This document shows, one piece after another, positions 22,691-41,774 of a stretch of 64,000 nt of DNA. The DNA is from Paenisporosarcina sp. FSL H8-0542 (GTDB lineage Bacteria; Bacillota; Bacilli; Bacillales_A; Planococcaceae). Both the position numbers and the translations under genes were made by a program. The first letter of the stretch is position 1; each line of letters starts with the position of its first letter. The stretch is taken from the NCBI RefSeq assembly GCF_038632915.1, contig NZ_CP152050.1:237501-301500 (forward strand), in the 5' to 3' direction. The notes under the pieces were generated by a model. The model did no database searches, was not told where the DNA came from, and was given only the letters and a program-made list of their open reading frames with translations.

Positions 22691-24493
22691 ATGTGCGGAA
22701 TTGTAGGATACATCGGAGAGTTAGATTCAAAAGAAATTTTATTAAAAGGGTTGGAAAAATTGGAATACCGCGGTTACGATTCAGCTGGTATTGCCGTTCG
22801 CAATGAAGATGGTGTAACTGTATTCAAAGAAAAAGGACGCATTGCAGACTTACGTCAAGCAGTAGAAAATGATGTGCATGCAAAAACTGGTATCGGCCAC
22901 ACGCGTTGGGCGACTCACGGAGTTCCTAACCAATTGAATGCCCATCCACACCAAAGTGAATCAGGTCGCTATACGCTGGTTCATAACGGAGTTATCGAGA
23001 ACTATCATTTGCTTCAAAAAGAATATTTACCTGGCATGGAAATGAAGTCCGACACGGATACAGAAGTCATTGTTCAGTTAATTGAGAAATTCTCTAAAGA
23101 CGGCATGACTACTGGTGAAGCATTCCGCCATACACTTGGCTTGTTGCACGGATCATACGCAATCGCGCTATTGGATTCAGAAGAAGCACAAACAATTTAT
23201 GTTGCGAAAAACAAGAGCCCATTATTAGTTGGTCTTGGTGACGACTTCAACGTTGTAGCGTCTGACGCAATGGCGATGTTACAAGTAACAGACCAATATG
23301 TAGAGCTTCATGATCAAGAAATGGTTATTGTGAAAAAAGAGTCTGTTGAAATTCAAAAATTAGATGGCTCGGTAGTAGAGCGTCAAGCTTATACAGCTGA
23401 ACTGGATATGAGCGATATCGAAAAAGGCACATACCCACATTACATGCTGAAAGAAATTGACGAGCAACCGGCTGTTATGCGTAAAATCATCCAAGCTTAC
23501 CAGAACGAACAAGGCGAGCTTGAAATTGATGAAGCAATCTTGACTGCTTTAAATGAAGCGGATCGTATGTATATTATTGCAGCAGGAACTAGCTATCATG
23601 CTGGTTTAGTAGGAAAAGAATACTTCGAGAAAATTGCGGGTATTCCAGTAGAAGTTCACATTTCAAGTGAATTCGGCTATAACATGCCGTTGCTATCTGA
23701 AAAACCATTGTTCATGTTCATCACTCAATCTGGTGAAACTGCGGATAGCCGTCAAGTATTGGTGAAAATCAAAGAATTGGGCCACCCAACGTTAACAGTA
23801 ACAAACGTACAAGGTTCTACACTTTCACGTGAAGCAGATCACACATTGTTATTGCATGCAGGTCCTGAAATCGCTGTAGCGTCAACGAAGGCTTACACAG
23901 CACAAATCGCTGTACTTGCTCTTACTGCAGCAGTAGCGGCTAAAAAAGCGGGACGTACAGTAGATTTCGATTTCGTTAAAGAACTTGGTATCGTAGCTAA
24001 TGCCGTTCAAGCGATGGTTGATTCAAAAGAAGAAATGGAGCAAATCGCTCGTGACTTCCTATCAACTACTCGTAACGCATTCTTCATCGGCCGAAACTTG
24101 GACTTCTGTGTCAGCATGGAAGGCGCATTAAAACTAAAAGAGATTTCATACATCCAAGCTGAAGGCTTTGCAGGTGGCGAATTGAAACACGGAACGATCG
24201 CTCTAATTGAAGATGGTACTCCGATATTCGCATTGGCGACACAAAAAGCAGTAAGCTTGAACATCCGTGGAAACGTTAAAGAAGTCGTAGCACGTGGCGC
24301 AAACCCATGTATCATTGCGATGGAAGGCATGGAAGAAGAAGGCGACACATTGGTACTGCCAAAAGTGCACCCATTGTTGACTCCACTTGTTTCGGTAATT
24401 CCTTTACAACTGATCAGCTACTACGCAGCACTTCACCGTGACTGTGACGTGGATAAACCTCGTAACTTGGCGAAGTCTGTTACGGTTGAATAG
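22691..24493 (+). CDS. glmS: Glutamine-fructose-6-phosphate aminotransferase GlmS
   Basis: Makes glucosamine-6-phosphate from fructose-6-phosphate and glutamine, the entry step to peptidoglycan amino sugars. 600 residues, full length. The N-terminal nucleophile Cys is in [10 protein letters not shown], the glutaminase domain occupies residues 1-240, and two SIS isomerase domains follow. The C-terminus [13 protein letters not shown] is the highly conserved end used as target by Tn7-type elements. Shine-Dalgarno GGAGG. Transcription is controlled post-initiation by the upstream ribozyme. Its own terminator now lies 29.6 kb away because a transposon has entered 24 bp past the stop codon. Confidence 0.98.
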
Positions 24494-24517: not shown

Positions 24518-24600
24518 TGTAGCTTTGTAAAAAAGATTGTTCATTTATAACAAAGTTTGATTATTTATAATAAAGATTGATCGTTTATAATAAATTTTGA
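24518..24600 (+). repeat. Left-end TnsB-type binding sites
   Basis: Terminal unit CTTTGTAAAAAAGATTG (24523), then three units in exact 20-bp register: TTTATAACAAAGTTTGAT (24544), TTTATAATAAAGATTGA (24564), TTTATAATAAATTTTGA (24584). Repeated sites of about 20 bp at the ends are where TnsB-family transposases bind. Confidence 0.85.
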
Positions 24601-24612
24601 TAAAAAATAATA

Positions 24613-25102
24613 TCTTCGTGTACCTATATCCGAAGGAGTTTCCACCAACATTAATGTTGGTAACTAAATTAGTTTAAAGTATAAAGAATTGTTTTGTTGG
24701 AAAATAATTAAAAGAATGTTGTTTTACTTTTCCGGGTAAAACAACATTGTTATGGTGAATAGTTTATCTTTGAAATACCAATTAACAAAAAGCTTTGGGA
24801 AAGGGTGTTATAAATTAAATAAACATTAGTGAAATACTAATGTTTATTTAATTTACCCTTTTTTAAGCTTTAAGTTGATTGGTATTTTTTGTTTTGTATA
24901 TTCGGAATAATCAGGATTCGAGGTGTGGAATATAAGGAGATATGAGGATAAAACAAGTACAAAAAAATCAAATAAATAAGGGATTGAAGTCGTGATTGGT
25001 TGTAGGAAACTTTAAAGAAGGAGCTAAAATAATTCTGATAAAGAGAATGATTTAGATTTTAGAAAAAATATCATTAATTAATTTTAGGGATAGAGGTGAG
25101 GT
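24613..25102. repeat. Left-end interior with three palindromes, including a 113-bp inverted repeat; no gene
   Basis: Between the TnsB sites and tnsA there is no gene. Visible dyads are CTTCG...CGAAG (24614-24635), CCAACATTAATGTTGG (24646-24661) and GTTGTTTTAC...GTAAAACAAC (24719-24746). The largest is an imperfect inverted repeat at 24774-24886, from AATACCAAT to ATTGGTATT with the core AAACATTAGT/ACTAATGTTT. The long repeat could be a small non-autonomous element or a strong transcription barrier. Confidence 0.65.
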
Positions 25103-25942
25103 ATGTCAAAACGTAAACGTTCAACGTCCACTGAAAAAAAGATGAAAAACGGTCGCGGACAAGGATCAGGTACGGATTATAAGCCTTGGATAGTTATACA
25201 AGATCTAGCCTCACTTGGACGCTCAACGCGTTTAAAAGGTTATAAGATACCGAGACAATTCGAGTTCCTCTCAGATTTGGAAAGAAACTACTTTTACTTA
25301 TTGGAATATTCAGATGGAGTAGTTGATATTCGCGAACAGTATCCTTTACTTCCTCTTGGAGAAACACTTAGTATCGCAGATGAATTAGGCTTAAAGCATC
25401 CTACTAATCCTATAACCAATGAGCTTATTGAAATAACTACGGATTTTCTTATAACGACCATAAACGATGGACAGCATAAACATGTAGCTCGCACTTTAAA
25501 ATATAAGAATGACTTAATGAATGAACGTATACTCGAAAAGTTTGAAATTGAACGTGTTTATTGGGAAAGACAAAGTGTTGACTGGGGAATTGTAACAGAA
25601 TTAGAGGTGCCTAAAACAATGGCTCATAATATAGCTTTTGTACATAGGTATGCGGACTTATCGATGTTGGAGGGCTTTGAGGAATGTAGCACATACGATA
25701 TTGAAGATATGAGTATTTATTTTCTTCAAGTGCTATTAGCTGAGGAAAAGACTGTTAAGCAAATTGCAAAAGAGGTGGAAAAATATTTTGGAATGGTAGT
25801 TGGATGCGGTCTATCCATTTTTAAATATCTTGTAATGACTAAAGTAATTGAAATTGACTTAAGTGAAAAGCTAGATGTGACTAAAATTCTAAGCATTAAA
25901 GCAGTTCGGACAGATTTTTCTGAGAAGGTGAAAGCAATATGA
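25103..25942 (+). CDS. tnsA: TnsA transposase endonuclease
   Basis: Cuts the 5' ends of the transposon so that Tn7-type elements move by cut-and-paste. 279 residues, the family's usual size. The catalytic N-terminal restriction-like domain shows FLSDLERNYFYLLEY with its Glu, then EITTDFLI with the Asp and RTLKYKNDL with the Lys. A C-terminal winged domain follows (residues 170-279). Start ATG 25103 after GAGGTGAGG. Its stop overlaps tnsB (ATGA). A truncated paralogue lies at 53511. Confidence 0.93.
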   Translation: MSKRKRSTSTEKKMKNGRGQGSGTDYKPWIVIQDLASLGRSTRLKGYKIPRQFEFLSDLERNYFYLLEYSDGVVDIREQYPLLPLGETLSIADELGLKHPTNPITNELIEITTDFLITTINDGQHKHVARTLKYKNDLMNERILEKFEIERVYWERQSVDWGIVTELEVPKTMAHNIAFVHRYADLSMLEGFEECSTYDIEDMSIYFLQVLLAEEKTVKQIAKEVEKYFGMVVGCGLSIFKYLVMTKVIEIDLSEKLDVTKILSIKAVRTDFSEKVKAI

Positions 25943-28098
25943 TTTTTAACAATCAAGTATATCAGTACACCGATAAAGAAGAAAAAAATCGTATCCGCGT
26001 AATTGAGATAGACAGTGATGTTGCATATTATGTAGAACTTCATAGTGATACGTCAATGCCAAAAAGAGTTGCTACTATGGATTTAGAATCAGAAATAGAA
26101 GGTGGAATCTTATTACCCATATCAGATCCATTTGCAAAAAGTTACACAGAAGGAGGTTTAACAGAAAAGCAAATTCAAAAACGGAATGTAGATTGGGAAA
26201 TTTTATCTGAAGGCTGGGATAAATTCAAAGCAGATTTGTTAAATAAAAGGACTAGAGAAAAAGCTTTTGATAAGCTAGAGTTTCAATTTAACACTAGCAA
26301 ATTAAAGATTAAACGCGTCTTCACTCGCTTCTGGCAACGTGGATTAAATAAAAATGCTTTATTACCTGACTATATGTATTCCGGTGGAAAGGGGAAAGAA
26401 AAGAGGCTAACAACGGCATCTAAAGTAGGTCGACCGAGAAAATATACATCGTTACAAAACGGTATTAATATAACTGAAGATATAAAAAAACAGTTTAACC
26501 ATGTCATTAAGAAGTACTATCGAAATAAAGAACAACTATCCCTTACGGATACCTATAACTATTTATTAAGGGATTTTTATTCGGATAGTTATTATGAGGG
26601 TAGTATCTTAAAGTACAAGGTTTGGGATGCTTCAAAAATACCTACTTATTATCAGTTTTACTATTGGTTTAAAAAATTTGAAGACCCTAAACTTGATATC
26701 CAGTTAAGGCATAGTTCGAAAGAGTTTGAATTAAACGACCGTCCAATTTTATGTAACTCAACACTCGAAACCGATGGTCCCGGAACACGCTTTCAAATTG
26801 ATGCAACGATTGCAGATGTGTATTTAGTTAGTTCATTTGACCGTTCTTTAATTATTGGACGTCCCATCGTTTATGGGGTGATTGATGTATATTCCCGCAT
26901 GATTACAGGGATATATGTTGGGCTAGAAGGACCGTCTTGGCTTGGAGCAATGATGGCGTTAGATAACATGGTAATGAATAAAGTTGAGTTTTGTACTCGT
27001 TACGATATACCAATCGAAGAATCACAATGGCCGGCTCATCATCTACCAGAGATTATTATAGCTGATCGTGGTGAATTTGAAGGGTATTCGGTGGAGAATC
27101 TTATAAATAACTTAAATATTAAAATTGAAAATACAACTCCTTATCGTGGTGATCTAAAAGGGGTTATAGAACGATATTTCCGTACAATGAATGGCAAGAT
27201 AAAACGTAAGGCTCCCGGAGCAATACAAAAAGAATATCGTGAACGAGGAGACCGTGATTATCGTCTAGATGCAAGTTTAAACTTAACTGAGTTCACAAAA
27301 ATTATTATTCACCTGGTGTTACACCATAACAAGAAAATTGTTGAAAAGTATCCATTAGAAAAAGAAATGATGGTGGATAGATTAACAGCTACACCTAGCA
27401 ATTTGTGGTATTGGGGTATTGAAAATAAAAAAGGTAGACTTCAAACTGTCACTGACCAGAATGTATTTAGGTTGAATTTATTACCTAAGGGAAATGCCAA
27501 AATCACTCGAGCAGGCATAAGATTCAAGGGTCTTTCTTATGGTTCTGAAAAAGCTTTGAATGAACAATGGTACCTAAAATACAGGGGAAAAAGTATCGAA
27601 ATCGTCTATGATCCAAGGAATATGAATCAATTATATATTCCCCACGCAGATGGATACAATTTTGATACATGCTATTTATTAGATACGAATGATCAATTTA
27701 AGGGCACTTATTTGGAAGAAATTGAATTTTTTCAAGAATTACGTGAAGAGTTAAAAAAAGTGGAAAGCATTAAGCAGATTGAAGACACAATTAATGTAGA
27801 TGCAAAAATTGAATCTATTATTAATGAAGCAGTAGCTGAAAAGAAAAGTACTGTACCCACTAACGTAAGTAGATCAGAAAAAATTAAAGATATTCGTGTT
27901 AATCGACAGGCAGAAAAAATTATGAACAGAAATCTTGAGAATTTTAATTTTGTAGATAAAAAAAATGAGCAACCGGCTCAAATAGTCGAATTCACATCAA
28001 TACCCGCGAATAGTGAAGCGTTACCAAAGAAGTCGAGCTCACGTCTAATGGAAAAAATTAAGAAGAAGCGAGATGAGGAATTTGGGAAAGGTAACTAA
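25939..28098 (+). CDS. tnsB: TnsB DDE transposase
   Basis: DDE-superfamily transposase that cuts and joins the 3' ends. 719 residues. The DDE triad is visible: Asp in RFQIDATIADVYLVS near residue 291, Asp in EIIIADRGEFEG near 377, and Glu in KGVIERYFRTMNGK near 413. N-terminal helix-turn-helix DNA-binding domains precede it. The charged C-terminal tail (residues 640-719) is expected to contact TnsC. Starts inside the tnsA stop; its end overlaps tnsC by 26 bp, forming one translationally coupled operon. Confidence 0.95.
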   Translation: MIFNNQVYQYTDKEEKNRIRVIEIDSDVAYYVELHSDTSMPKRVATMDLESEIEGGILLPISDPFAKSYTEGGLTEKQIQKRNVDWEILSEGWDKFKADLLNKRTREKAFDKLEFQFNTSKLKIKRVFTRFWQRGLNKNALLPDYMYSGGKGKEKRLTTASKVGRPRKYTSLQNGINITEDIKKQFNHVIKKYYRNKEQLSLTDTYNYLLRDFYSDSYYEGSILKYKVWDASKIPTYYQFYYWFKKFEDPKLDIQLRHSSKEFELNDRPILCNSTLETDGPGTRFQIDATIADVYLVSSFDRSLIIGRPIVYGVIDVYSRMITGIYVGLEGPSWLGAMMALDNMVMNKVEFCTRYDIPIEESQWPAHHLPEIIIADRGEFEGYSVENLINNLNIKIENTTPYRGDLKGVIERYFRTMNGKIKRKAPGAIQKEYRERGDRDYRLDASLNLTEFTKIIIHLVLHHNKKIVEKYPLEKEMMVDRLTATPSNLWYWGIENKKGRLQTVTDQNVFRLNLLPKGNAKITRAGIRFKGLSYGSEKALNEQWYLKYRGKSIEIVYDPRNMNQLYIPHADGYNFDTCYLLDTNDQFKGTYLEEIEFFQELREELKKVESIKQIEDTINVDAKIESIINEAVAEKKSTVPTNVSRSEKIKDIRVNRQAEKIMNRNLENFNFVDKKNEQPAQIVEFTSIPANSEALPKKSSSRLMEKIKKKRDEEFGKGN

Positions 28099-29764
28099 CT
28101 TTGTCCTTAAAGGGGATATTGAGGAAGCAAATTATAAAAAACAAGCTTTATCAGAGTATAACAATAATCCCTTCATCGAAGCTCTTCCACCGCTTTTCGA
28201 TGAAGACGATGTGCTCGAACGATTTATGTTAACGCCACGTATTACGTTGCAAGATAAACAGAGTGAAAGGAATATTCGCTATCATGTATTAAAGCGAGTA
28301 AAGAATTTCATTCAGCCTTTAGAGATTCATTTTGAAGTAGAGCGTCGACTATCAACTTTAATTAGAAGAGGTTACTTAGCAAGAAATCCTTTAGATAAAA
28401 GCTTCTTAGAACGCATTAGAGTGTTACATCGATTGCGTGAGGATGAAGAAGAAGCTTATAAGTATATTGATGAAAGATTAAATTATATTCGTTCTACCGC
28501 AGATAGCTTATCGATTATTGGTATCTCAGGTATCGGTAAAACAACAGCAATTGAAAGATTGTTACTTATGTATCCTCAAGTAATTAAGCATGAAACGTAT
28601 GAAGAACAACCTTTAAATCGTACGCAAATTGTGTGGCTTAAAATAGATTGTCCATATGATGGTAGTCTTTCAACATTGTGCAAAAGCTTTTTTAAGGCGA
28701 TTGACGACTTACTGGGAACACGTTATTTAGAGAAATATGGCTATTTGAGTCGTGTTACGTCAACTATGCTTCTTCACATGACATCATTAGCAAGTATGTA
28801 TGGGATTGGTGTGTTAGTGATAGATGAAATTCAGCACCTTTTGCATTCAAAAAATGACCAAGAAGAAATGTTAAACTTTATTGTTACACTATCAAATACG
28901 GTAGGGATTCCAACGGTGTTAATTGGTACATCAAAAGCACAAAAATTGTTTAAGGGTAACTTCCGTCAAGCCCGTCGTGCAGCGAGTGAAGGTTCCATTA
29001 TTTGGGATCGGATGGCTGAGGATAGTGAAGAATGGGAGTTTTTCTTGGAAACATTGTGGAAGCTAGAATGTTTGAAAACACATTCAGAAATCACGGATGA
29101 GGTAAAAAAGACATTTTATGATGAATGCCAAGGAATTACTTCTGTTGCTGTATGCCTATTTATTTTAGCACAGGAACGGGCTATGTTTGATGAAGATAAT
29201 GTTAGTGAAATTATTGATTCAAAAGTGCTTAAAAAGACATCTAAATTAGATATGCAAATTATCCAACCAATGATGAAAGCAATTCGTACCAATAATTTAA
29301 AGGACATGATGAAATACGAGGATATCATGATTAATTTAGATGAACTGATGATCAATCATAAGCGTGATACAGAACTCGAAGGGAAAATTCGCAAAGGATT
29401 TACTGAACGCAAAAATACACTAGATTATAAACGAAAAGACCTAATTGAAAATCTTGCTGTGGAAATCTCGGCATTAGGAATTTTCGATAGTATGAATGTA
29501 AATGATATTAAAAATCTCGTAACAAAAATTGTTGAGAATAACCCGATTGATGTAGATTTTAATTTACTAAAAACTGATGCAATTCAACAGGCTATTAAAC
29601 TAAACCAGCATAAGAAAACAAAGAAAGAACCTAGAGTGAAAAAGTTGCAATTATTACCATTATTAGCACTAAGAACAAAAGCATTAGAAAAAAAGAATCA
29701 CCCATATGAAGCCTTGCAAAGTAGTGGATATATTAAAAATCCATTACATGAGTTCTATAGATAA
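28073..29764 (+). CDS. tnsC: TnsC AAA+ ATPase
   Basis: ATP-dependent regulator that connects target selectors with TnsAB. 563 residues. Walker A GISGIGKTTAIE near residue 148, Walker B VLVIDEIQHL near 250, and the sensor segment TVLIGTSKAQ near 285. The C-terminal 150 residues are basic and repetitive. The start ATG 28073 lies inside tnsB with a weak ribosome site (AAGAAGCGAG), so translation by coupling is likely; a TTG 27 bp downstream is out of frame. Confidence 0.94.
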   Translation: MRNLGKVTNFVLKGDIEEANYKKQALSEYNNNPFIEALPPLFDEDDVLERFMLTPRITLQDKQSERNIRYHVLKRVKNFIQPLEIHFEVERRLSTLIRRGYLARNPLDKSFLERIRVLHRLREDEEEAYKYIDERLNYIRSTADSLSIIGISGIGKTTAIERLLLMYPQVIKHETYEEQPLNRTQIVWLKIDCPYDGSLSTLCKSFFKAIDDLLGTRYLEKYGYLSRVTSTMLLHMTSLASMYGIGVLVIDEIQHLLHSKNDQEEMLNFIVTLSNTVGIPTVLIGTSKAQKLFKGNFRQARRAASEGSIIWDRMAEDSEEWEFFLETLWKLECLKTHSEITDEVKKTFYDECQGITSVAVCLFILAQERAMFDEDNVSEIIDSKVLKKTSKLDMQIIQPMMKAIRTNNLKDMMKYEDIMINLDELMINHKRDTELEGKIRKGFTERKNTLDYKRKDLIENLAVEISALGIFDSMNVNDIKNLVTKIVENNPIDVDFNLLKTDAIQQAIKLNQHKKTKKEPRVKKLQLLPLLALRTKALEKKNHPYEALQSSGYIKNPLHEFYR

Positions 29765-29860
29765 TAAACTAAATTAATAAAATTTTTTTGTGAACTGATT
29801 AAACCCCTAGTTAAATCGACATTATAAAAACAATGCAAATTTAACTAGGAGGTAATTAAG

Positions 29861-31690
29861 ATACTACCATTTTTCACAAACCCATATCCGGATGAACTGA
29901 TTTATTCTGCGATTGCACGTTATCACTTTTATAGTGGGAATATTGATTTCAAAGATACCTTAGAAGAAGTGTTTCTAAGTCGATCAGTGATTCCGAGCGT
30001 GGAAATAGGAAGTCAATTTACTGCGTTAGCCCAGCAACTTGGTTCTAATTATTCTGTTGAAAGTCTAATAGCAGAACATACGATTTATCCATACTACGCA
30101 TTGTTTCTTTCAAAGCAGCGACAGCAAGAAATCATGAAAGATATTAAAGGTAATGGTCAAGGACTATATACAAGACTAGGACTAGTTGCGGGGAGTATCT
30201 GTAAAAAGGATGGACTCTATTATTGTAATATATGTGCGACGAAAGATGTTGATCAATATGGAGAGCCGTATATTCATCGAGAGCATCAACTTCAAGGTAT
30301 CGATTACTGTAGCCACCATGAAATTAAGTTAAGAAAGTATCCTGTTGATTTCAATATGAAAAGCAGAATAGAATTTATTCGTTTTGAAATAAAGAACATG
30401 GTTCTGTTGCCGTTACATGAAGTCGATGAATCTGCAAAGATTCAAATAACATTAGCAAAAATGGCATATCAGCTTTTACAATTACCACTTAATGGATTAT
30501 CTCGAGAAGATATGGCTTTAAAATATAGAGCAGTTCTACGAGAACGAAATTTAGTCACTGCATCGAATCGTGTACGACAGAGCAATTTACATGAAATCTT
30601 TCAAGTGAAACTACCTAAAGGGTTTTTAGTGGAGTTTGAATCAGAGATTGATGAAAAGGATGAATACAATTGGTTGAAGGTGCTTACTCGTAATGTAAAG
30701 CGTCATGTACATCCGTTCCGTCACTTAATTATTCTATACTTTTTAGAAGTTGATATACAAAGTTTTATAAAGACAGATAAAGATTTAGGTGCATTTGGTA
30801 AAGGTCCATGGCCGTGTTTAAATAAGGCAGCATTACATCACAATCAGCTTACTGTTGTGAGAGTCGAAGTAACAAGAGACTTCAAAACGAAAAATCCTAT
30901 TGGAACATTCGCCTGCTCCTGTGGTTTTGTTTATGCAAGAAAAGGTCCAGATAGAACAGAAGAAGATCAATTTCTTATAGGTCGTGTGAAAGTATTTGGA
31001 CATGTGTGGCAAAAGAAGCTGCAAGAATTATCAAAGCAAGGCTTAAGTATTCGATCAATTGCGAGAGAACTTGATGTTGATTCTAAGACTGTGAAAAAGT
31101 ATTTAGAGGAATTTAATGAAATATCAGTTAAAGAAAAATCCAATAATTTAGCCTTGTGTGATCTATACCGAATAGAGATAGTGGAAGGTATAAAGAAACA
31201 TGAGGATTTAAATCGAACACAAATACGCGGGCAGTTCCCAAAGCAGTATATCTATTTATATAGAAACGATAAGAGGTGGCTATTTGAACATCTACCGGTA
31301 AAGAAAAAGCAAAATGAAACAAGGAGAATAGTTGATTGGGAAAAGCGTGATAAAGAATATCACAACAAAATTGATCAACTATATCAGGAATTAGTTCAAT
31401 CCAAGAAGCCAATCCGGATTACAAAAACAATCATCGGAAAAAGACTGGGTATACTCGCCGATTTAGAACGTAATTTAGACAAACTACCCCGTACAGATAA
31501 ATTACTTCAGAGCGTTGTTGAATCTGTACAAGGCTTTCGAATTCGTCGTTGTTACAAGATAATTGATAAGATGTTTGAACAAAATGAATCAGTATTACTT
31601 TGGCAAGTACAAAGAGCTGGGGGATTGAGATATTCGTCTTTTATTGAAATAAAAGGAGAGTTAGAAAGATATATTCAGAAAAAATGTTAG
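29861..31690 (+). CDS. tniQ: TniQ/TnsD-family target selector 1, apparent AUA start
   Basis: 609 residues if started at ATA 29861. TniQ-family proteins choose the insertion site; TnsD members recognise glmS. The conserved N-terminus (FFTNPYPDELIYSAIARYHF) lies upstream of the first ATG (29969). In-frame sequence before the ATA is just five codons from a TAG at 29846, with no ATG, GTG or TTG. AGGAGG (29847-29852) sits 8 nt before the ATA. A zinc site is visible in YYCNICATKDVDQYGEPYIH followed by HREHQ and YCSHH. A helix-turn-helix follows around RSIARELDVDSKTVKKYLEE. AUU at 29855 is a less well spaced alternative. Confidence 0.88.
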   Translation: MLPFFTNPYPDELIYSAIARYHFYSGNIDFKDTLEEVFLSRSVIPSVEIGSQFTALAQQLGSNYSVESLIAEHTIYPYYALFLSKQRQQEIMKDIKGNGQGLYTRLGLVAGSICKKDGLYYCNICATKDVDQYGEPYIHREHQLQGIDYCSHHEIKLRKYPVDFNMKSRIEFIRFEIKNMVLLPLHEVDESAKIQITLAKMAYQLLQLPLNGLSREDMALKYRAVLRERNLVTASNRVRQSNLHEIFQVKLPKGFLVEFESEIDEKDEYNWLKVLTRNVKRHVHPFRHLIILYFLEVDIQSFIKTDKDLGAFGKGPWPCLNKAALHHNQLTVVRVEVTRDFKTKNPIGTFACSCGFVYARKGPDRTEEDQFLIGRVKVFGHVWQKKLQELSKQGLSIRSIARELDVDSKTVKKYLEEFNEISVKEKSNNLALCDLYRIEIVEGIKKHEDLNRTQIRGQFPKQYIYLYRNDKRWLFEHLPVKKKQNETRRIVDWEKRDKEYHNKIDQLYQELVQSKKPIRITKTIIGKRLGILADLERNLDKLPRTDKLLQSVVESVQGFRIRRCYKIIDKMFEQNESVLLWQVQRAGGLRYSSFIEIKGELERYIQKKC

Positions 31691-31760
31691 AAAAATATCT
31701 GTTATAGAGGAATGAATGGAAATGATTTATACCAAATAAAGTTATTTGGGGGAGATTGAG

Positions 31761-33608
31761 ATTCTTACATTTTTCACTGATCCATATAAAGATGAATTGG
31801 TTTATTCATCAATAGCTCGTTATCATTTCTATAGTGGTAACATTAATTTAAAGGATACCTTAGAAGAATTATTTAGAAGTCGAAATGTTGGTGCGAGTGT
31901 TTTGTTTGGTAGTAGGTTTACCATATTAGCTGAACAAATAGGGAGAAATTATTCTGTCGAGAGCTTGCTTAATAATCATACAATTTACCCGTATTATGCA
32001 CCATTTATTTCGGTTCAGCGTCAACAAGAAGCAATATCTAAAGTTAATGGTAAAGGTAATGGGCTATATTGGAGCCTTGGAATGGCTTCAGGTGGAATTT
32101 GCAGAAAAGACGGTCTCTATTATTGCTCATTGTGTGCAAATGAAGATATCGAAAAATATGGGGAGCCTTATATTCATCGTGAACATCAATTGCAAGGAAT
32201 AGAATATTGCGGACACCATGAAACTCAAGTGAAGAAATATGCTAATGATCTAAGAACGGCTAGTACATTTGAATATATTCGGTTTAATAAAAAAATAATG
32301 GATTTATCAATTCCACAAAGAGTTGAACATAATGAATTTTCTATGGTTGAAATCAAATTAGCAAAGATGGCATATCAATTGTTACAAGTTCCTATTGATA
32401 AATTTTCTAGAGAACACATTGTACTTAAATATCGAGCTCTATTGAGAGAAAGAAATTTAATAACACTTGAAAATTATGTAAGAAAAGTGAAATTACACAG
32501 AGCTTTTTCTATTAAATTTCCAAAAGGTTTTTTAGAGAAATACGAATCGTCAATTATAAATGAAAGTAGTAATTGGCTAAATATGATAACATCCATTAAA
32601 AGTAGTAATGTTCATCCTTTCCGACATCTATTACTGATATTTTTTCTAGAATTAGACATTGATTCATTTTTAGACATTGAACCAGATCAAGGACCATATG
32701 GATTAGGTCCATGGCCGTGCCTTAATAAAGCTGCGAACCACTTCGAGCGAAATGTAGTGAATAAACTAGTTATTAAAAGTGATAGAACTGGCCAACCTGT
32801 TGGTGAATTTTCTTGTTCATGTGGATTGATTTACGTTCGAAAAGGACCTGATAAAACAGCTAACGATAAATGTCGAATAAGTTATATTAAAGTTTATGGC
32901 GAGAGTTGGCTTGCCGAGATTCATAAGTTACACAATAATGGTCTAAGTATAAATGCTGTAGCAAAACAACTAGGAGTTTCTAGAGATATTATTAGTAGAC
33001 AACTAAGAGGTATCGGTAAATCAAAAGATAAAAATAAATCAGTGAGTAAAGAGGAGTTAATAAAGAAATATCGTAAAAAATTCCTTGAAGATATGAAACA
33101 ATTCCCAAACTCCTACAGGACAGAGTTGGGAAGGAAATTTAATAAGATTTATAGTTTTTTATTCAAAAATGATAGAGAATGGCTTATTGGACACATTCCC
33201 AAAAAACAAAAGGTAATATCTTGTAAAAGGTTTGATTGGAAAGCCAGGGATGAGGATTATTACGAGAGAATAAAAGTTCTTCACAAAGACTTACTAGAAC
33301 TAGATAAACCAGTAAGAATTACACGTACATTTATTGGCAAGAGATTGGAAATTCTAAATAGCTTAGTGAGATCGGATACGGAAATAAAACTACCACGTAC
33401 AAATCAATTATTAAATGAAATAACCGAGTCTGTTCAAGATTTTCAGTATAGGAGATGTATAAAAATTTTAGATAAGTTGTTAGAAGAAGATGAACCGTTT
33501 GGAATTTGGAAAGTACAAAAAAAGGGTGGAGTACATCCACGTCATTTTATCGAAATAAAAACTAAATTAGAAGAATACTTAGAAAGGAAGAAGGGGGGAA
33601 ATAATTAA
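31761..33608 (+). CDS. tniQ: TniQ/TnsD-family target selector 2, apparent AUU start
   Basis: 615-residue paralogue of the previous gene, alike along the whole length. N-terminus LTFFTDPYKDELVYSSIARY, zinc motif YYCSLCANEDIEKYGEPYIH with HREHQ, helix-turn-helix NAVAKQLGVSRDIISRQLRG. The homologous start codon is ATT 31761, six bases after GGGGGAG; the only standard alternative, TTG 31746, overlaps that ribosome site. Divergence between the copies suggests separate target preferences, one of which should be the glmS end. The assignment of targets cannot be made from sequence. Confidence 0.87.
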   Translation: MLTFFTDPYKDELVYSSIARYHFYSGNINLKDTLEELFRSRNVGASVLFGSRFTILAEQIGRNYSVESLLNNHTIYPYYAPFISVQRQQEAISKVNGKGNGLYWSLGMASGGICRKDGLYYCSLCANEDIEKYGEPYIHREHQLQGIEYCGHHETQVKKYANDLRTASTFEYIRFNKKIMDLSIPQRVEHNEFSMVEIKLAKMAYQLLQVPIDKFSREHIVLKYRALLRERNLITLENYVRKVKLHRAFSIKFPKGFLEKYESSIINESSNWLNMITSIKSSNVHPFRHLLLIFFLELDIDSFLDIEPDQGPYGLGPWPCLNKAANHFERNVVNKLVIKSDRTGQPVGEFSCSCGLIYVRKGPDKTANDKCRISYIKVYGESWLAEIHKLHNNGLSINAVAKQLGVSRDIISRQLRGIGKSKDKNKSVSKEELIKKYRKKFLEDMKQFPNSYRTELGRKFNKIYSFLFKNDREWLIGHIPKKQKVISCKRFDWKARDEDYYERIKVLHKDLLELDKPVRITRTFIGKRLEILNSLVRSDTEIKLPRTNQLLNEITESVQDFQYRRCIKILDKLLEEDEPFGIWKVQKKGGVHPRHFIEIKTKLEEYLERKKGGNN

Positions 33609-33912
33609 TGATTTACCGCCTTTTTTCAATACGTCTTTATTACTTTTCGACGCTTACGTTTCCTATTCACATGGAAGGATAATTAACAGTAGTATGAGGA
33701 ATTGCTAAGCATGCAAGGTACATTAAAGATTGTTATTAAAGAGCATATATAAGTAAAAATTAGTTAACAGAAAAACCTTGTTCTATGGAATTCGCGTACT
33801 ATAAAACTCAAATTGAATTGTATTTTTTAAACGTATTTACAATTTTTTAAAAAGGTTACAAAGTACATATATAGTAGGAATGAAAATTATGATTGAGCTC
33901 CAACATTCTTAA

Positions 33913-34059
33913 TGGCTAGTGGAACAATTTAGATCTATTGTGGTCCATTTGACTGATGATTTTAAATCGGCTATTACAGGTGAAATGCGTCCATTCATCC
34001 TAAATTCCGTTCATGATGATTCAATTTTGCAGCTAATTGTTCCTGTTCGTACATATTAA
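33913..34059 (+). pseudogene. C-terminal remnant of an unknown protein
   Basis: 48 codons of plausible coding sequence ending ILQLIVPVRTY, preceded in frame by a stop. The family is not recognised. The terminator right behind it supports a former gene end. Confidence 0.4.
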
Positions 34060-34066
34060 ATTCCAA

Positions 34067-34106
34067 AAGACGATTTATCCCTGGACAGGGTCAAATCGTC
34101 TTTTTC
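34067..34106 (+). terminator. Intrinsic terminator after the gene remnant
   Basis: Stem AAGACGATTT / AAATCGTCTT enclosing a second short dyad, followed by TTTTC. Confidence 0.7.
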
Positions 34107-34348
34107 AATTTGCAATAAGAATCCCATTAGTTATGACAATAAATGGAATGTTTTAAACCCTTTCTAAAATTAAAGTGTCAATAATTAGGTTTTGAACTGT
34201 TATTATAAGAGGGAGTACGCTCTCGCCTTCTACTGGTAGAATAGAGGGGAGTAGGGTGCCAAAGAAGATATGTGCAAATACGACTTTCAGTTATCTACAT
34301 ACAAACCAGAGGCTTCAATAATTACAAGAAAAGTGAGGAATAGAACAA

Positions 34349-35941
34349 ATGAGTGGATTGAACACGATACTATTTAGTGCTGCAGATAACTTACGCAGCA
34401 AAATGGATGCATCAGAATATAAGAACTATTTATTAGGCTTGATTTTTTATAAATATTTGTCGGATCGATTACTCGTAAAAGTAGTTGAGATTGCAGATGA
34501 GTCGCTAGAAGAATACGACACGGTAGAAAAACAATCGCAACTATATGAAACATTACTAGGGGATGCAGAAATCAAAAGTGATTTAATTGAAACCTTGGTC
34601 GATACACTGGGCTATGATATTGAACCAGCGTATCTATTTAACGTATTAACAAATCAAGCCAAACAAACCACATTCCAGTTAAACGATCTCAATAAGGCAT
34701 TTATCGAATTGTCGACAAAATACGATCAGTTCAACGGCCTATTTGATGATGTGGATTTACATTCAAAAAAACTGGGGTCAGATGCTCAGCAACGAAACAT
34801 TACCATCACTGAAGTGATAAAGAAATTGAATCCGATTAACCTATTGGGGCATGGGGGCGATGTGATTGGGGACGCGTATGAGTTCTTAATCAGCCAATTT
34901 GCATCAGAAGCTGGCAAGAAGGCAGGAGAATTCTATACACCTCATGAAGTATCAGTCATGATGGCGCGTATTACTTCCATGGGACAAGAGGATAAAAAGC
35001 TATTTAGCGTATACGATCCGACCATGGGATCTGGGTCGTTGATGTTGAATGTCCGAAACTACATCCGTCACCCGGAAAGTGTGAAATACCACGGACAGGA
35101 ACTCAACACCACGACTTTTAATCTCGCTAAAATGAACTTAATCTTGCACGGCGTAGATAAAGAAGATATGCGTTTAAGCAATGGCGATACCTTGAACAAA
35201 GATTGGCCGACAGATGAGCCATATACGTTTGATTCAGTATTGATGAACCCACCCTATTCAGCGAAATGGTCTTCAGACGATACCTTCTTAGATGATTCAC
35301 GCTTTAACCGTTTCGGAAAGTTGGCGCCAAAATCAAAAGCTGATTTTGCGTTTCTCTTGCATGGTCTTTATCACCTGAAAGATTCCGGAACAATGGCTAT
35401 CGTGTTGCCACATGGGGTACTGTTCCGTGGAGCTGCCGAAGGCGTAATTCGGAAGAAGTTGTTGGAAGACGGCAGCATTGATGCGGTAATCGGCATGCCA
35501 AGCAATTTGTTCTTTGGAACATCAATTCCGACGACGGTCATTATCTTGAAGAAAAATCGCGAGTCACGTGACGTCCTTTTTATTGACGCAAGCAATGACT
35601 TTATTAAAGGTAAAAACCAAAACAAACTCTCAAAAGAGAATATCGATAAGGTTGTTGAAACGTATAGATATCGAGAGGACGTCGATAAGTATGCACATAT
35701 GGCTAGTTTTGAAGAGATTAAAGAGAACGACTTCAATTTAAATATCTCAAGATATGTAGATACCTTTGAAGAAAAAGAGACAGTGGATATGGCTACAATT
35801 GGTGTAAGTATTCGAGAGGTCCGAAAAGAAAAAGCTGAACTTGAATCGAGTTTATACAAAATGATTTCTTCTCTTCAATACAGTGAAGAAGACACAGAAT
35901 GGATGCAAGGGGCGTTAGAGGTGTTTAAGCATGAAGATTGA
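34349..35941 (+). CDS. hsdM: Type I restriction-modification DNA methyltransferase HsdM
   Basis: N6-adenine methyltransferase subunit of a type I restriction system. 530 residues. An N-terminal helical HsdM domain (residues 5-150) is followed by the methylase domain with motif I DPTMGSGSLML near residue 227 and catalytic NPPYSAKW near 308. Shine-Dalgarno GTGAGGA before ATG. It overlaps hsdS by 11 bp. Base use is closer to the core genome than to the tns genes, which fits a separately acquired cargo module. Confidence 0.96.
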   Translation: MSGLNTILFSAADNLRSKMDASEYKNYLLGLIFYKYLSDRLLVKVVEIADESLEEYDTVEKQSQLYETLLGDAEIKSDLIETLVDTLGYDIEPAYLFNVLTNQAKQTTFQLNDLNKAFIELSTKYDQFNGLFDDVDLHSKKLGSDAQQRNITITEVIKKLNPINLLGHGGDVIGDAYEFLISQFASEAGKKAGEFYTPHEVSVMMARITSMGQEDKKLFSVYDPTMGSGSLMLNVRNYIRHPESVKYHGQELNTTTFNLAKMNLILHGVDKEDMRLSNGDTLNKDWPTDEPYTFDSVLMNPPYSAKWSSDDTFLDDSRFNRFGKLAPKSKADFAFLLHGLYHLKDSGTMAIVLPHGVLFRGAAEGVIRKKLLEDGSIDAVIGMPSNLFFGTSIPTTVIILKKNRESRDVLFIDASNDFIKGKNQNKLSKENIDKVVETYRYREDVDKYAHMASFEEIKENDFNLNISRYVDTFEEKETVDMATIGVSIREVRKEKAELESSLYKMISSLQYSEEDTEWMQGALEVFKHED

Positions 35942-37100
35942 TAAAAGCTCAGAAGTTCGTTTTTCAGAATTTAAAGGAAATTGGCTAGAGTATAAATTAG
36001 GAGAATTATATACGGAGCGGAAAGAAAAAGGACAAGACTCTTTACCAATGCTCTCCGTTTCGATTCATAATGGTATTTCAGATGGGGAATTAGATATTGC
36101 CAGCTTAGGAAAGTCGGTTGTGAGGAGTGAAGACAAATCTTTATACAAGCGCGTATATCCTGGCGACCTTGTCCTCAACATGATGCGTGCGTGGCAAGGG
36201 GCATATGGAGTTGTGACATCAGCAGGAATGGTAAGTCCAGCATACATTACTGCTACTCCAGGTAATCAAATTTATCCGCCATTTATGGATTACTGTTTGC
36301 ATCGTGATGAGATGGTTTCTCAGATTAATAATCTTTCTTACGGTGTTACAGACTTTAGAAAAAGATTATATTGGAAGTCGTTTATTAAAATTTCATGTCT
36401 AATTCCTTCAATACCTGAACAAAAAGCAATAACATCTTTTTTAATAAAAGTTGACAAATTAATTTTGAATTACCAGCAAGAACTCACGACACTCAAAAAA
36501 ACCAAACGGGGATTCTTGCAAAAGATGTTTCCAAAAGAAGGGGAGGCTGTTCCGGAAGTTCGTTTTGCTGGATTTAGCGGGGAATGGAATCAAAGATCTT
36601 TAAGAGAACTTATTGAAAGAGAAAAAAAAGGTAAAGCAAAATTAGATTCTCTCGGTCCGGGAGAAGTTGAATATCTAGATGCAGCCCGTTTAAACGGTGG
36701 TGATCCAATACTATGCGGTGCGGTTAAAGATGTCTATGAAGACGATATTTTAATACTTTGGGACGGTTCTAAAGCGGGTTCTGTATATCATGGCTTTGAG
36801 GGCGTATTAGGTTCTACATTAAAAGCATATACCATATTAGAAGATGCAGACCCATCGTTTGTTTATCAATATTTAGTCTTTTCTCAAGAAAATATATTTG
36901 ATAGATATAGAACTCCAAATATACCGCATGTTATCAAAGATTTTACAGACGCGTTTAATATACCTGTGCCACTTTACGAAGAGCAAATCCAAATAGGTAA
37001 TTTCTTTAAACAACTTGATGAGTTAATTGCTCTTCAAGAAAAGGAATTAGACGCCTTAAAAAAAACCAAAAAAGCTTTCCTACAAAAAATGTTCGTCTAA
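35931..37100 (+). CDS. hsdS: Type I restriction specificity subunit HsdS
   Basis: 389-residue DNA-recognition subunit with two target-recognition halves, each starting VRFxxFxGxW-like (residues 9-18 and 206-217). The halves are separated by near-identical coiled spacer sequences (LKKTKRGFLQKMFPKE and LKKTKKAFLQKMFV at the C-terminus). Those repeats are where HsdS halves recombine to change specificity. Intact, so a bipartite recognition site is expected; the sequence of that site cannot be predicted. Confidence 0.94.
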   Translation: MKIDKSSEVRFSEFKGNWLEYKLGELYTERKEKGQDSLPMLSVSIHNGISDGELDIASLGKSVVRSEDKSLYKRVYPGDLVLNMMRAWQGAYGVVTSAGMVSPAYITATPGNQIYPPFMDYCLHRDEMVSQINNLSYGVTDFRKRLYWKSFIKISCLIPSIPEQKAITSFLIKVDKLILNYQQELTTLKKTKRGFLQKMFPKEGEAVPEVRFAGFSGEWNQRSLRELIEREKKGKAKLDSLGPGEVEYLDAARLNGGDPILCGAVKDVYEDDILILWDGSKAGSVYHGFEGVLGSTLKAYTILEDADPSFVYQYLVFSQENIFDRYRTPNIPHVIKDFTDAFNIPVPLYEEQIQIGNFFKQLDELIALQEKELDALKKTKKAFLQKMFV

Positions 37101-37123
37101 ACGAATAGAAAGGAGGACGACTC

Positions 37124-40100
37124 ATGACCAAGATTCTGCATAATGATGAAGTTGAAGTGGAACGTCGCTTGATAAAAGTCTTGGGAGAAGGGCATAACCA
37201 GTGGAATTATCGACCTGACTTAAAATCTGAAGAAGATCTATGGAAGAATTTACGAACAAAGATTACGCAGAATAACTTGTCGGAAATCGGCGAATATCCG
37301 CTGACGGATAAAGAATTTGATACGATCAAAACCGAATTACTGCTGAAAACCAAGACACCTTTTGATGCAGCACGATGGCTCAAAGGAGAGAATGGAATTG
37401 CCCGAATCACAATAGAGCGTGAGGACAGCACGCTTCCTTCAGTCTCGCTGGTATTGTATTCCAATCAAGACATTGGAGGAGGCATCTCTACCTATGAAGT
37501 GGTCCATCAGATTGCGAAGCAAAAAGTGGATGCGGACGGTCGTGATCGTCGCTTTGATGTCACGTTGCTCATTAACGGATTGCCGATTGTACAAATTGAA
37601 TTGAAACAAGCCACCTCTAAAGACGGAGTTTTCCAAGCGTATCATCAGATCAAGAAATATGCAGAAGAGGGCATGTTCCGAAATAACATCTTCGCGACGC
37701 TACAGTTGTTTGTCATTTCCAATGAACAAACCACGCGTTATTTTGCGAATGCAATGCCAAAGGATATGCACAAGAAATTGGTCTTCAGCTGGCGCACGAC
37801 TGATAATCGAAAAGTAGACAACCTCTATGAGTTCGTGAAGCAAGTTCTCAACATTCCGGATGCACACCGATTGATTGCGAACTATACCATTGTCAGTGAA
37901 GATCAAGACAACAAAGCCCTGATGGTTCTTCATTCGTATCAAATTCATGCGATTGAAGCCTTGTTCACCTCTGCGATGAAACACAAATCAGGCTACGTTT
38001 GGCATGCTACGGGTTCCGGAAAAACTTTAACGAGTTTTGTATCTACCAAGCTACTTGCTCGAAAGCCGGGGGTGGATCGTACGGTCATGCTGATTGACCG
38101 CAAAGACTTGGACAACCAAACGACAAATGAATTTACTAAATTTGCTTCCGAATTCAATACAGGGATTTCCTCTGGTAATGCGAAGTCGAACAGTTTAATT
38201 ATTGGTACAGGAAGTTCCAAAGAGTTAAGTGACACGCTGCTATCAAGTGCGAATTCCAATACCGTGATCATCACTACACGGCAAAAATTAGAAGCAGCAC
38301 TACGGTATGCGGAGAAACAAGAAGAACAAAAAGGTTCGCAGCGTTTCCAAAAGCTCATGAGTCAGCACATTGTCTTTGTTGTGGACGAATGCCACCGAGC
38401 ATTAAGTGCAGAGGGAATGGAAGCCATCAAGCAGTTCTTCCCGAATTCCACCTGGTTCGGCTTTACAGGCACACCAATATTTGAAGAAAATAAAAAGCAA
38501 GCGAAGGGGCGTCTGGCTCGTACTACACATGATCAATACGGAGAAGTCTTACACACCTATACCATCAAGAATGCATTGGACGATGGGGCTGTTTTAGGGT
38601 TTCAGGTAGAGCATGAAGATACGATCGAACATACATCACTGAAAAATTACATTTTTAATCAAATGCGTCCTAAAGAGAAATTTGCGGAACTCAGTGATAA
38701 TGAACTGAATGATAAGATCGATGAAATGGATGGTTTGGAAAAAGAGGACTATATTGAATCTTCCTTTTTTGAAAGCGATGATCATATTCAAAAAGTTCTT
38801 CATAAAATATTCCGTCCAGACAATGCCTATACGAAATTCGATTTTCAAAATGGTCGACCTCAAAAGTCAGCCATTTTCACCACAAGCTCAATTGAGATGG
38901 CGAAGCGCTATTACCAGGCCGTCAAGAAGATGACGGCAGATCCCGAATGGTTAACGAATGAGTTTACCGGACACCTGATTCGGAAAGGGCGAACCATAGA
39001 AGACGCTGACTTTCCGCGAATTGCGATTACCTATTCCATGCAGGAGAATGTTGTCGATACCAAAAATATTCAGGATGAAATGAAAGAAGTCATCAAGGAT
39101 TATAACGAGTATTACGATACGTCGTGGTCGATTGAGGACATCGATCGATACAACGGCGATATCAACAATCGCTTGGCTCGGAAACGTGCGGAATTTAAAA
39201 CGTTTGGAAAACAAGTGGACTTAGTCATTGTCGTGGATCGACTGTTGACAGGATTTGATGCTCCGACGATTCAAACCCTATTTGTCGACCGAAACCTAAG
39301 CTATGCTAACCTGATTCAAGCCTTTTCTCGGACCAATCGTACCTATCCTGGGAAGACAAAAGGATTGATTGTGACGTTCCGAAAACCTGTGACCATGGCG
39401 CACAATGTCAAAGCTGCTACTAAGTTATACTCGGAGGCACAGGAAGAAAATAACCTGGTGTACCCAAGTTATACCGAATCGAAGAAACGCTTTAAGAAAG
39501 CGCATAAGGTGCTCACCACACGAGTAGCCAATCAGGCAGCCATTGATGAGCATTCACCGATTAAAGAACGTATCGAGTTTATTAAAGCGTTCCAAGAATT
39601 GAACAAAGCCTATGAAGCCTTAGTAACCTATGACGATTACAACGACGATATGGAGAAATCAGTTGCGCTCCAAGAACAGGTGAAAGTCTTAGAGGAATAC
39701 ATTGGTGCATACAACACGGTGAAAGGTTCTTTAATCGACGACACGCCACCTGTTGAACCAACGGACGATGAAACGGATTTTTCAGGAATTGAGTTTTATG
39801 GGGAAAATGCCAGTACGATGTATGATATTGATTCTACCTATATCAACTTGCTGCTGGAAACCTACGCAGCCAATAACCAAGATATCCGCGAAGAAATTGA
39901 AAAAGCCTTACAAAAGCTGAACAAATCAATTGTCGTAAAAGAGGTGTACCGTTCGATTTTGAATGGCATCGATACTGGGGAAGTTGATGAAGAGGAAGAT
40001 ATATTTGTCGTTAAACGACGCTTCTTCACGGACTCTTTTGACCGGGCGATTCATGCATTCGCAAACATGTGGTTTGTTTCCGAAAACGAATTGCACTTAT

Positions 40101-40291
40101 CCGCCATTCAATATGTAGTCGGGACGCATCCTATCCCAAATATCAGAGGGATTTTAGATAGTAAAAGGTTTGATGAATATAAAGTGACCAATCCGGGTGC
40201 AAGTCCATTGAAATACGGTCCTGAGATGAAACGTCAATGGACCAAGCTACTTGATGAGGTCATTGTGCCGTTAGGGGACGAGTTGCGATAA
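37124..40291 (+). CDS. hsdR: Type I restriction endonuclease subunit HsdR
   Basis: 1055-residue motor and nuclease subunit. The N-terminal PD-(D/E)xK nuclease shows RFDVTLLINGLPIVQIELKQ near residue 145. The superfamily 2 helicase follows: Walker A HATGSGKTLTSF near 293, VVDECHRA near 419, and motif VI QAFSRTNRTYPGK near 740. A C-terminal helical region interacts with the methylase core. Shine-Dalgarno AAAGGAGG. The hsdM-hsdS-hsdR set is complete, so the system is probably active as transposon cargo. Confidence 0.96.
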   Translation: MTKILHNDEVEVERRLIKVLGEGHNQWNYRPDLKSEEDLWKNLRTKITQNNLSEIGEYPLTDKEFDTIKTELLLKTKTPFDAARWLKGENGIARITIEREDSTLPSVSLVLYSNQDIGGGISTYEVVHQIAKQKVDADGRDRRFDVTLLINGLPIVQIELKQATSKDGVFQAYHQIKKYAEEGMFRNNIFATLQLFVISNEQTTRYFANAMPKDMHKKLVFSWRTTDNRKVDNLYEFVKQVLNIPDAHRLIANYTIVSEDQDNKALMVLHSYQIHAIEALFTSAMKHKSGYVWHATGSGKTLTSFVSTKLLARKPGVDRTVMLIDRKDLDNQTTNEFTKFASEFNTGISSGNAKSNSLIIGTGSSKELSDTLLSSANSNTVIITTRQKLEAALRYAEKQEEQKGSQRFQKLMSQHIVFVVDECHRALSAEGMEAIKQFFPNSTWFGFTGTPIFEENKKQAKGRLARTTHDQYGEVLHTYTIKNALDDGAVLGFQVEHEDTIEHTSLKNYIFNQMRPKEKFAELSDNELNDKIDEMDGLEKEDYIESSFFESDDHIQKVLHKIFRPDNAYTKFDFQNGRPQKSAIFTTSSIEMAKRYYQAVKKMTADPEWLTNEFTGHLIRKGRTIEDADFPRIAITYSMQENVVDTKNIQDEMKEVIKDYNEYYDTSWSIEDIDRYNGDINNRLARKRAEFKTFGKQVDLVIVVDRLLTGFDAPTIQTLFVDRNLSYANLIQAFSRTNRTYPGKTKGLIVTFRKPVTMAHNVKAATKLYSEAQEENNLVYPSYTESKKRFKKAHKVLTTRVANQAAIDEHSPIKERIEFIKAFQELNKAYEALVTYDDYNDDMEKSVALQEQVKVLEEYIGAYNTVKGSLIDDTPPVEPTDDETDFSGIEFYGENASTMYDIDSTYINLLLETYAANNQDIREEIEKALQKLNKSIVVKEVYRSILNGIDTGEVDEEEDIFVVKRRFFTDSFDRAIHAFANMWFVSENELHLSAIQYVVGTHPIPNIRGILDSKRFDEYKVTNPGASPLKYGPEMKRQWTKLLDEVIVPLGDELR

Positions 40292-40391
40292 GGTAGTAAT
40301 AGCACACCCTATTAGTGCTGAAAGAGAACAAGGGTAATTACTTTTTTGTATTTCAAATGTAAATTTTATAAAAGAATGTAAAAGGAGTGAA

Positions 40392-40445
40392 CTGAACCCC
40401 AAATCGTAGGCACTAAAAAAGTGGCTTCACTTGGGGTTTAGTTTC
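40392..40445 (+). terminator. Terminator after hsdR
   Basis: Stem TGAACCCCAA / TTGGGGTTTA with an inner short dyad (GCACT/AGTGG) and a T-rich tail. Usable from both sides. Confidence 0.7.
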
Positions 40446-40511
40446 TTTGTGTAAGTGTTTTTTGATTACGACAATTTTCATTAAACTTTTAAAACATACG
40501 TGGCAGGTATC

Positions 40512-40711
40512 TTAATCATCAGAATCCCAATGTACGCTACCACCAGCTGCATCAGCAAACACTCGTATTGCATGATCAACTCGTGACTGGTATTCATCAT
40601 CAGTTCTTTATAGGAAGCCTCAAACTCATCTTCGTCCATTACTTCAATATTATCAATCAAAATATCTACAATTGTTTCCTGTTTTGGATCACTATATTTT
40701 CTATTAAACAT
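40512..40711 (-). pseudogene. Frameshifted small hypothetical gene
   Basis: One frame gives MFNRKYSDPKQETIVDILID and continues acidic to near residue 38. Protein-like sequence then moves to another frame (TDDEYQSRVDHAIRVFADA, ending GGSVHWDSDD and a stop at 40512). The shift is near 40605. Together they make a product of about 65 residues. Function unknown. The -frame continuation past the shift is hydrophobic and looks like noise. Confidence 0.55.
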
Positions 40712-40763
40712 AATCGACTCATTTCATCTATGTTGATATTCATGTAACAAATTCGTGTGTTGT

Positions 40764-40919
40764 TTAAGTTTCCAAAACATTTGTACTTGAAATACTTTTT
40801 TTATATCCACATTCTGTACATGACCAAATATATTTATGATCGTCAAAATTATCTTGACTGTTTAAATATGCATTACAACGATCGCAATACCAGTCAATAT
40901 CTTGAAACCTTTTAACCAT
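40764..40919 (-). CDS. Small zinc-ribbon protein (51 residues)
   Basis: MVKRFQDIDWYCDRCNAYLN begins a short protein with two CxxC pairs (WYCDRCNAYLN and WSCTECGYKK) forming a zinc ribbon. Very similar short zinc-ribbon proteins are common in Bacilli without known function. The start is ATG 40919 with Shine-Dalgarno GGAGGGAGG; the longer frame is not needed. A 30-residue frame (40912-41004, ending RLPKEWREVTNNG) overlaps its start and may be the tail of a lost upstream gene. It lies 78 bp after the TIR gene on the same strand. Confidence 0.7.
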   Translation of the reverse strand: MVKRFQDIDWYCDRCNAYLNSQDNFDDHKYIWSCTECGYKKSISSTNVLET

Positions 40920-40996
40920 TGTTCGTAACCTCCCTCCATTCTTTAGGTAGGCGAAATAAATGGCTGTAAAAATGCTCACGGATATGGGCTTCATCA

Positions 40997-41593: not shown

Positions 41594-41680
41594 TTGAGCG
41601 ACTTTTAAATCTGACTCTTGTTTTAGGATTTGTCGTATTTTATTGGCTTTAGAGCAATACTCTTAGTTAAGTAGGACTAG

Positions 41681-41774
41681 TCTTCTTCAACTAATGGGTG
41701 CTTTAGTTTAAGATCAGGGAGGTGCGAGGACAGCTCTTTTTTCTTGTTCAACTAACGGGGCAGGTTAGCTTAAG
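41681..41774 (+). repeat. Two copies of a small hairpin repeat
   Basis: Copies at 41681-41711 (TTCAACTAATGGGTGCTTTAG) and 41746-41774 (TTCAACTAACGGGGCAGGTTAG) share an arm TTCAACTAA, a GGG-rich loop and a partly matching 3' arm. Further copies are at 42538 and 44848. The surrounding 41594-41932 stretch has no intact gene. Confidence 0.7.

Follow-up and report, generated by a model that had tools for sequence, protein, structure and literature searches.

Tn7-like elements that combine the core genes tnsABC with two TnsD-type target selectors beside glmS have been described as dual tniQ-tnsD elements (PMC10293859; see also PMC11406308 for background on dual TniQ). An element of this composition and location lies in the 64,000-nucleotide stretch of Paenisporosarcina sp. 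FSL H8-0542 analysed here (contig NZ_CP152050.1, positions 237,501 to 301,500), hereafter the window, whose numbering and forward strand apply to all features below. Its two selectors are tniQ1 (29861..31690, 609 codons) and tniQ2 (31761..33608, 615 codons), both of the TnsD family, read here from an ATA and an ATT codon. The best explanation, to which a probability of about 0.7 is given, is that both are intact target selectors of a complete glmS-side Tn7-like element, that their AUA and AUU starts are genuine and keep them scarce, and that a hairpin over the Shine-Dalgarno (SD) sequence of tniQ1 acts in addition.

IS911 is said, in work attributed to Polard et al. 1991, to initiate translation at an AUU codon, reportedly the one that begins OrfB. 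The likeness lies in AUU initiation within a mobile element; unlike the present genes, IS911 is an insertion sequence with a frameshifting gene pair and not a Tn7 target selector, and no homology is claimed. In Staphylococcus aureus, conserved AUU and AUA starts carry extended SDs and give ~10% of AUG reporter output in poor medium, and ccpN reaches as much as 30% in rich medium (PMC13009471). S. aureus infC (AUA), ccpN (AUA) and cvfC1 (AUU) share with tniQ1 and tniQ2 a conserved AUA, AUU or AUC (collectively AUH) codon after a strong SD in Bacillota, but they are host genes with measured initiation, whereas the present ones are transposon genes known from sequence (PMC13009471). For the hairpin, the IS200 tnpA leader offers a parallel, as a 5' stem-loop masks its ribosome-binding site and holds down transposase levels (PMC12594629). 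There, repression has been demonstrated in the 5' untranslated region of a lone transposase gene, whereas the present hairpin stands between tnsC and tniQ1, has SD bases in its covarying stem and would repress by analogy. None of the titles and abstract openings obtained from literature searches describes a TnsD/TniQ gene with AUH starts or with a leader hairpin; in the main text of PMC10293859 'start codon' occurs 0 times and AUH starts are undiscussed (no search for a leader hairpin was made in that paper), and AUU is absent from the part of PMC5009743 searched for AUU and IS911. The ingredients are each known elsewhere, and their combination on Tn7 target selectors looks new.

Upstream of tniQ1, an in-frame TAG (29846-29848) is followed by GAG GTA ATT AAG ATA, the SD AGGAGG (29847..29852) standing 8 nt ahead of the ATA at 29861. 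No ATG, GTG or TTG occurs between this stop and the conserved N-terminus, and the earliest in-frame standard start is GTG 29969, 36 codons past the ATA. The predicted protein matches PF15978 (2.8e-98) and, from residue 3, PF06527. A tiny reading frame at ATG 29833 was discarded, being absent from G138, the closest relative found. In tniQ2 (PF15978, 2e-81; PF06527 from residue 4), the SD GGGGGAG (31748..31754) lies 6 nt ahead of ATT 31761, with its GGGGG part ending 8 nt ahead, and pairs with the anti-SD over 9 pairs. An earlier note on this DNA had placed both starts and both SDs at these positions, with no standard start before the tniQ1 N-terminus, and re-checking gave the same coordinates. 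Its account of tniQ2 is right as to the ATT and the SD and omits an in-frame TTG at 31746.

Matches to tniQ1 were found in 56 of 261 genomes in the family search and in 55 of 398 in the class search; the order-level search took in the same 261 genomes, and searches in the families of G334 and G270 took in 5 and 11. Viral contigs and phages yielded no further members of the element, and a scan of genome contigs yielded 3 distant loci only. The closest element, in G138 from another genus of the same family, likewise stands beside glmS (identity 78% for tniQ1 and 66% for tniQ2) and keeps both codons: its tniQ1 leader reads TAG GGG GTA ATT AAG ATA, and its tniQ2 leader TAA GTT CTT TGG GGG GAG ATT TGG ATT. 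G126, also beside glmS, has ATG at tniQ1 and ATA at tniQ2. The copy on plasmid CP031730 is partly decayed, with a tnsB match covering only residues 305-717 and tniQ1 in three pieces; its tniQ2 is open throughout and has ATC at the aligned codon, where the deposited coding sequence begins (the PLSDB table is silent on completeness). This plasmid (CP031730.1, L122) is labelled Stenotrophomonas rhizophila, yet the relatives of its element found here are all Bacilli; the label or the sample may be wrong, or the transfer may have been unusual.

Among 74 distinct TniQ/TnsD N-termini (fetched loci only, with matches that begin no later than query residue 5 and duplicates counted once), four offer no standard start anywhere from the upstream stop to aligned codon 4, and all four belong to this element group: tniQ1 of the window and of G138 (both ATA), tniQ2 of G138 (ATT) and tniQ2 of CP031730 (ATC). 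The window tniQ2 stands outside this set because of its in-frame upstream TTG, and the tniQ2 of G126 has one upstream candidate start. A distant row, L021, shows ATA at the aligned place, but ATG two codons earlier. The six AUH codons of the group (tniQ1 and tniQ2 of the window and of G138, tniQ2 of G126 and of CP031730) all stand 8-9 nt after an SD core, counted as GGGGG where AGGAGG is absent.

A tree of 26 rows, 23 of them ingroup, was built without the broken or split G164, G062, G199, G334, CP031730 tniQ1 and second copy of G270. Its tniQ2 clade of four rows (100/100 support) carries ATT, ATT, ATA and ATC, tniQ1 of the window and of G138 form a clade (100/100) with ATA in both, and the remaining 17 ingroup rows have ATG (16) or TTG (1). 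Because the tniQ2 clade joins G237 (ATG; 100/98) and G146 (ATG; 84/86) before the other rows, AUH codons were most simply gained twice, as two separate clades. Since the tree leaves its basal forks open and places G237 on a long branch, AUH may instead have been gained once and then reverted in places, or been exchanged by the tandem copies. The earlier note held that an ATG at the aligned position of homologues would speak against its proposal. Such ATGs were found and point the opposite way: since most close homologues have ATG there, the aligned position is the start codon, and AUH is derived in this group. A second tniQ of the tniQ2 clade was found only in the window, L065, L066 and L122, each time adjoining a hairpin-bearing tniQ1. 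Several relatives beside glmS show one tniQ of this kind.

As a genome control, 461.5 kb of the strain's own genome with 273 open reading frames (ORFs) of at least 200 codons were considered. A standard start with a good SD was present in 205 of them, with a spacing mode of 7-8 nt, whereas in only two does an SD-placed AUH codon precede the first standard start by 15 codons or more, a rarity that speaks against chance; these two are tniQ1 and an unrelated ORF. The latter (L139, genome position 343271, outside the window) has an SD-placed ATT followed by 23 codons without a standard start, and is a further candidate for an AUU start. tniQ2 fails this filter because of its in-frame TTG and a GGGGG-type SD that scores under the cut. 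In the infC gene of the same genome, TGGAGGTGGATTACT stands ahead of ATT AGC AAA, and in-frame ATGs are present further upstream and four codons downstream. This arrangement matches the AUU start of Bacillus infC, and infC likely starts at AUU here too. Considered as a class, the putative AUH starts of the element group show an SD at normal distance and a codon kept in relatives; tniQ1 has no standard start within reach, and the one near the window tniQ2, its TTG, is not in frame in G138. The earlier note's proposal of AUA and AUU starts is thereby borne out by codons retained in another genus, an 8-nt spacing near the genome mode and ATG at the aligned codon in most close homologues, and initiation at AUA 29861 and AUU 31761 is well supported.

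The tnsC stop and the tniQ1 ATA are separated by 96 nt, in which a conserved RNA hairpin (29793..29863, the extent of the match to covariance model R1; core arms 29806-29816 and 29839-29849) extends its 3' arm into the SD. This hairpin, which the earlier note does not mention, speaks independently for control of tniQ1 at the level of translation. Fold z scores of the tniQ1 leader are -4.89 (window), -4.80 (G138), -4.17 (G126), -4.58 (G334), -3.03 (G041) and -2.60 (CP031730). In an alignment of nine leaders (A2), a structure of 23 pairs has 87.3% of its cells paired, compared with 33-45% in partner-sliding controls. Double-sided changes occur at 6 pairs, a count reached in 8 of 500 shuffles, and the covariation score of 0.184 was attained in 0 of 500; these shuffles leave relatedness in, and the structure was drawn up after viewing the folds of the same sequences. 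RNAalifold alone recovers 15 pairs from A2, 3 of them with double changes. Because 12 alignment cells retain pairing through a one-sided G-U change, the inverted repeat is more probably an RNA structure than a DNA palindrome serving as a protein operator.

The window site scores 74.8 bits with R1, as one of its training sequences. R1 matched one site in the strain's own genome, 8 of the 261 family genomes, each time at a tniQ start, and 2 of the 398 genomes of the class sample, including G334, all of them training sequences. The only held-out member, CP031730 tniQ1 (83.1 bits), is close to the training row G049, so that the model is specific yet adds little independent support. Over the interval 24480-34000 and at E up to 1, no Rfam family was found in the tniQ1 leader, and the sole match outside it scored 19 bits, where the gathering score is 60. 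In total the hairpin was found in ten Tn7-like elements, and it coincides with an AUH start at tniQ1 of the window and of G138. Hairpin-free elements have their tniQ either within ~15 nt of tnsC (G015, G012, G400, G270 and NC_009130), where its translation may be coupled to tnsC, or ~0.9 kb or more away (G043, G051, G026, G161, G019, G164 and G062); G237, also hairpin-free, has a gap of ~50 nt that fits neither sort. An origin of the hairpin as a copy of the element end repeats was rejected, as the motif TCGACATTATAA (up to 2 mismatches) occurs at no more than chance frequency in the window and the 20-nt arm gives one match only.

The proposed mechanism would begin with the initiator tRNA reading AUA 29861 and AUU 31761 after a well-placed SD. 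To judge from other genes, initiation factor 3 (IF3) would discriminate against such AUH codons, which would limit both proteins to a small fraction of what AUG would give and render them IF3-responsive. The conserved hairpin over the tniQ1 SD, whose structure is indicated by covariation, would add a second brake. As the core tnsABC genes retain ATG starts, the brake would fall on target choice, the step licensing insertion. Analogy with described systems suggests that output would be low and sensitive to IF3, that the hairpin would be repressive and that selector dosage would control transposition; selection for weakness is suggested by the repeated gain and non-reversal of AUH codons. The deliberately low or IF3-sensitive expression proposed in the earlier note would fit this mechanism.

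Other starting points can be envisaged for both genes. If the genes were decaying and translated from an internal start into truncated proteins, GTG 29969 would be the natural candidate, as the first standard start of tniQ1. In the comparison with G138, however, dN/dS (the ratio of nonsynonymous to synonymous change) over codons 2-36 is 0.02 for tniQ1 and 0.04 for tniQ2, whereas the whole genes give 0.195 and 0.278 (whole-gene dS 0.59 and 0.75); codons 2-12 alone give 0.04 and 0.22, the latter resting on a single change of each kind, which does not allow a judgement. Because codons 2-36 lie so far below the whole gene, translation very probably includes the stretch ahead of GTG 29969, and with a TniQ domain running from residue 3 in a complete element, an internal start is highly improbable. 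It is also unlikely that translation begins two codons upstream, at a conserved ATT or ATC (ATT AAG ATA; ATT GAG ATT; ATC GGT ATC), with the aligned codon as an internal isoleucine. Such a codon is present in all six AUH leaders, and ATT also in G126 tniQ1, but it stands only 0-4 nt from the SD, whereas exact AGGAGG lies 4-10 nt ahead of 45 ATGs of the strain's own genome (mode 7-8) and never 0-3 nt. Its bases are inside the predicted SD/anti-SD duplex, which can account for their conservation, and it would still be a non-standard start. Slightly less probable again is that tniQ2 begins at TTG 31746 (31746..31748), leaving tniQ1 alone unusual. This TTG is in frame 5 codons upstream of the ATT, with no intervening stop, which counts against an AUU start, but it has no SD upstream and is shifted out of frame by one additional G in G138, where no other standard start exists; the CP031730 tniQ2 likewise lacks one.

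A more serious competitor, though still an improbable one, accepts the AUH starts as genuine and denies them a regulatory role, the ATG having drifted away and weak initiation being tolerated because little TnsD/TniQ is needed. It fits a trait limited to a single element group, in which 6 of the 23 ingroup rows of the tree show it, and with the open basal forks and the long branch of G237 a single loss with reversals is conceivable. On the other side, ATG was most simply lost twice and never regained, although one base change suffices, in glmS-side elements of different genera. Changes at the third codon base are too few to separate selection for weak starts from toleration of them, and by estimate the absence of G at this base in the tniQ2 clade, with few changes, is not significant. 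This weighs against starts that are kept weak, as do several further points: G126 tniQ1 keeps ATG, so that AUH is dispensable even in a near relative, and in G126 tniQ2 the ATA is preceded, 13 codons earlier, by an ATG in frame. In each of the six AUH leaders the anti-SD duplex extends to within ~3 nt of the AUH codon and comprises 9-11 pairs, compared with 6-13 for 23 other leaders (one-sided p 0.007 for the number of pairs and 0.07 for energy, without correction for relatedness). At least 9 pairs are, however, formed at 73 of 130 ordinary ATG starts of the strain's own genome, and the extended SD was dropped as a special mark of AUH starts because such pairing is common there. The hairpin and AUH appear uncoupled, as separate layers, since 8 of the 10 hairpin leaders have ATG; in tniQ2 leaders a hairpin is unsupported (z -1.84 in the window, 0.67 in G138, 0.00 in CP031730 and 0.88 in G126), and several hairpin-free leaders likewise have an SD predicted to be poorly accessible.

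The element itself occupies 24518..54066, with ends TGTAGCTTTGT and ACAAAGCAACA. It has TGT...ACA ends with tandem repeats at both and is flanked by a 5-bp target duplication, CGAAC (24513-24517 and 54067-54071), near glmS; the matching ends, the duplication and the repeats at both ends mark it as a complete Tn7-like insertion. Its left boundary lies 24 bp past the stop of the gene adjoining the attachment site (22691..24493), which we take to be glmS from its protein sequence, not from a family search. The genes tnsA (25103..25942), tnsB (25939..28098) and tnsC (28073..29764), each with an ATG start, precede the two TniQ/TnsD genes in Tn7-like order (Pfam: TnsA N/C, Mu-transpos_C, TniB/AAA, and TniQ + TnsD twice). 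Cargo at 34349-44393 is defence-like, with a type I restriction-modification system (HsdM, HsdS, HsdR), a TIR protein and an OLD-like TOPRIM ATPase. Extra end-like repeats at 52564-52587 (TGTAACTTTGTAATAAAGTTTGTT), inside the element, and at 54162-54179 (TTTTTAATAAAGTTTGAT), just outside its right end, are perhaps remnants of another related element.

Tn7-like elements serve as insertion tools, and the native limits on their target-selector proteins are little known. AUH codons on both selectors, most simply gained twice, together with ATG on tnsABC, would indicate selector dosage as the throttle. A gene finder restricted to ATG, GTG and TTG would cut 36 residues from tniQ1 and lose the conserved TniQ N-terminus. 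The tniQ1 hairpin is a directly testable regulatory element. More speculatively, and with rather low probability, the tniQ1 leader might be an RNA switch, in which a hairpin whose inner stem and loop are conserved would be bound by TniQ/TnsD or a host protein that sets the openness of the SD, alongside IF3-tuned AUH starts. Were this so, the switch and the AUH starts would link target selection, and hence transposition, to the translation state of the cell.

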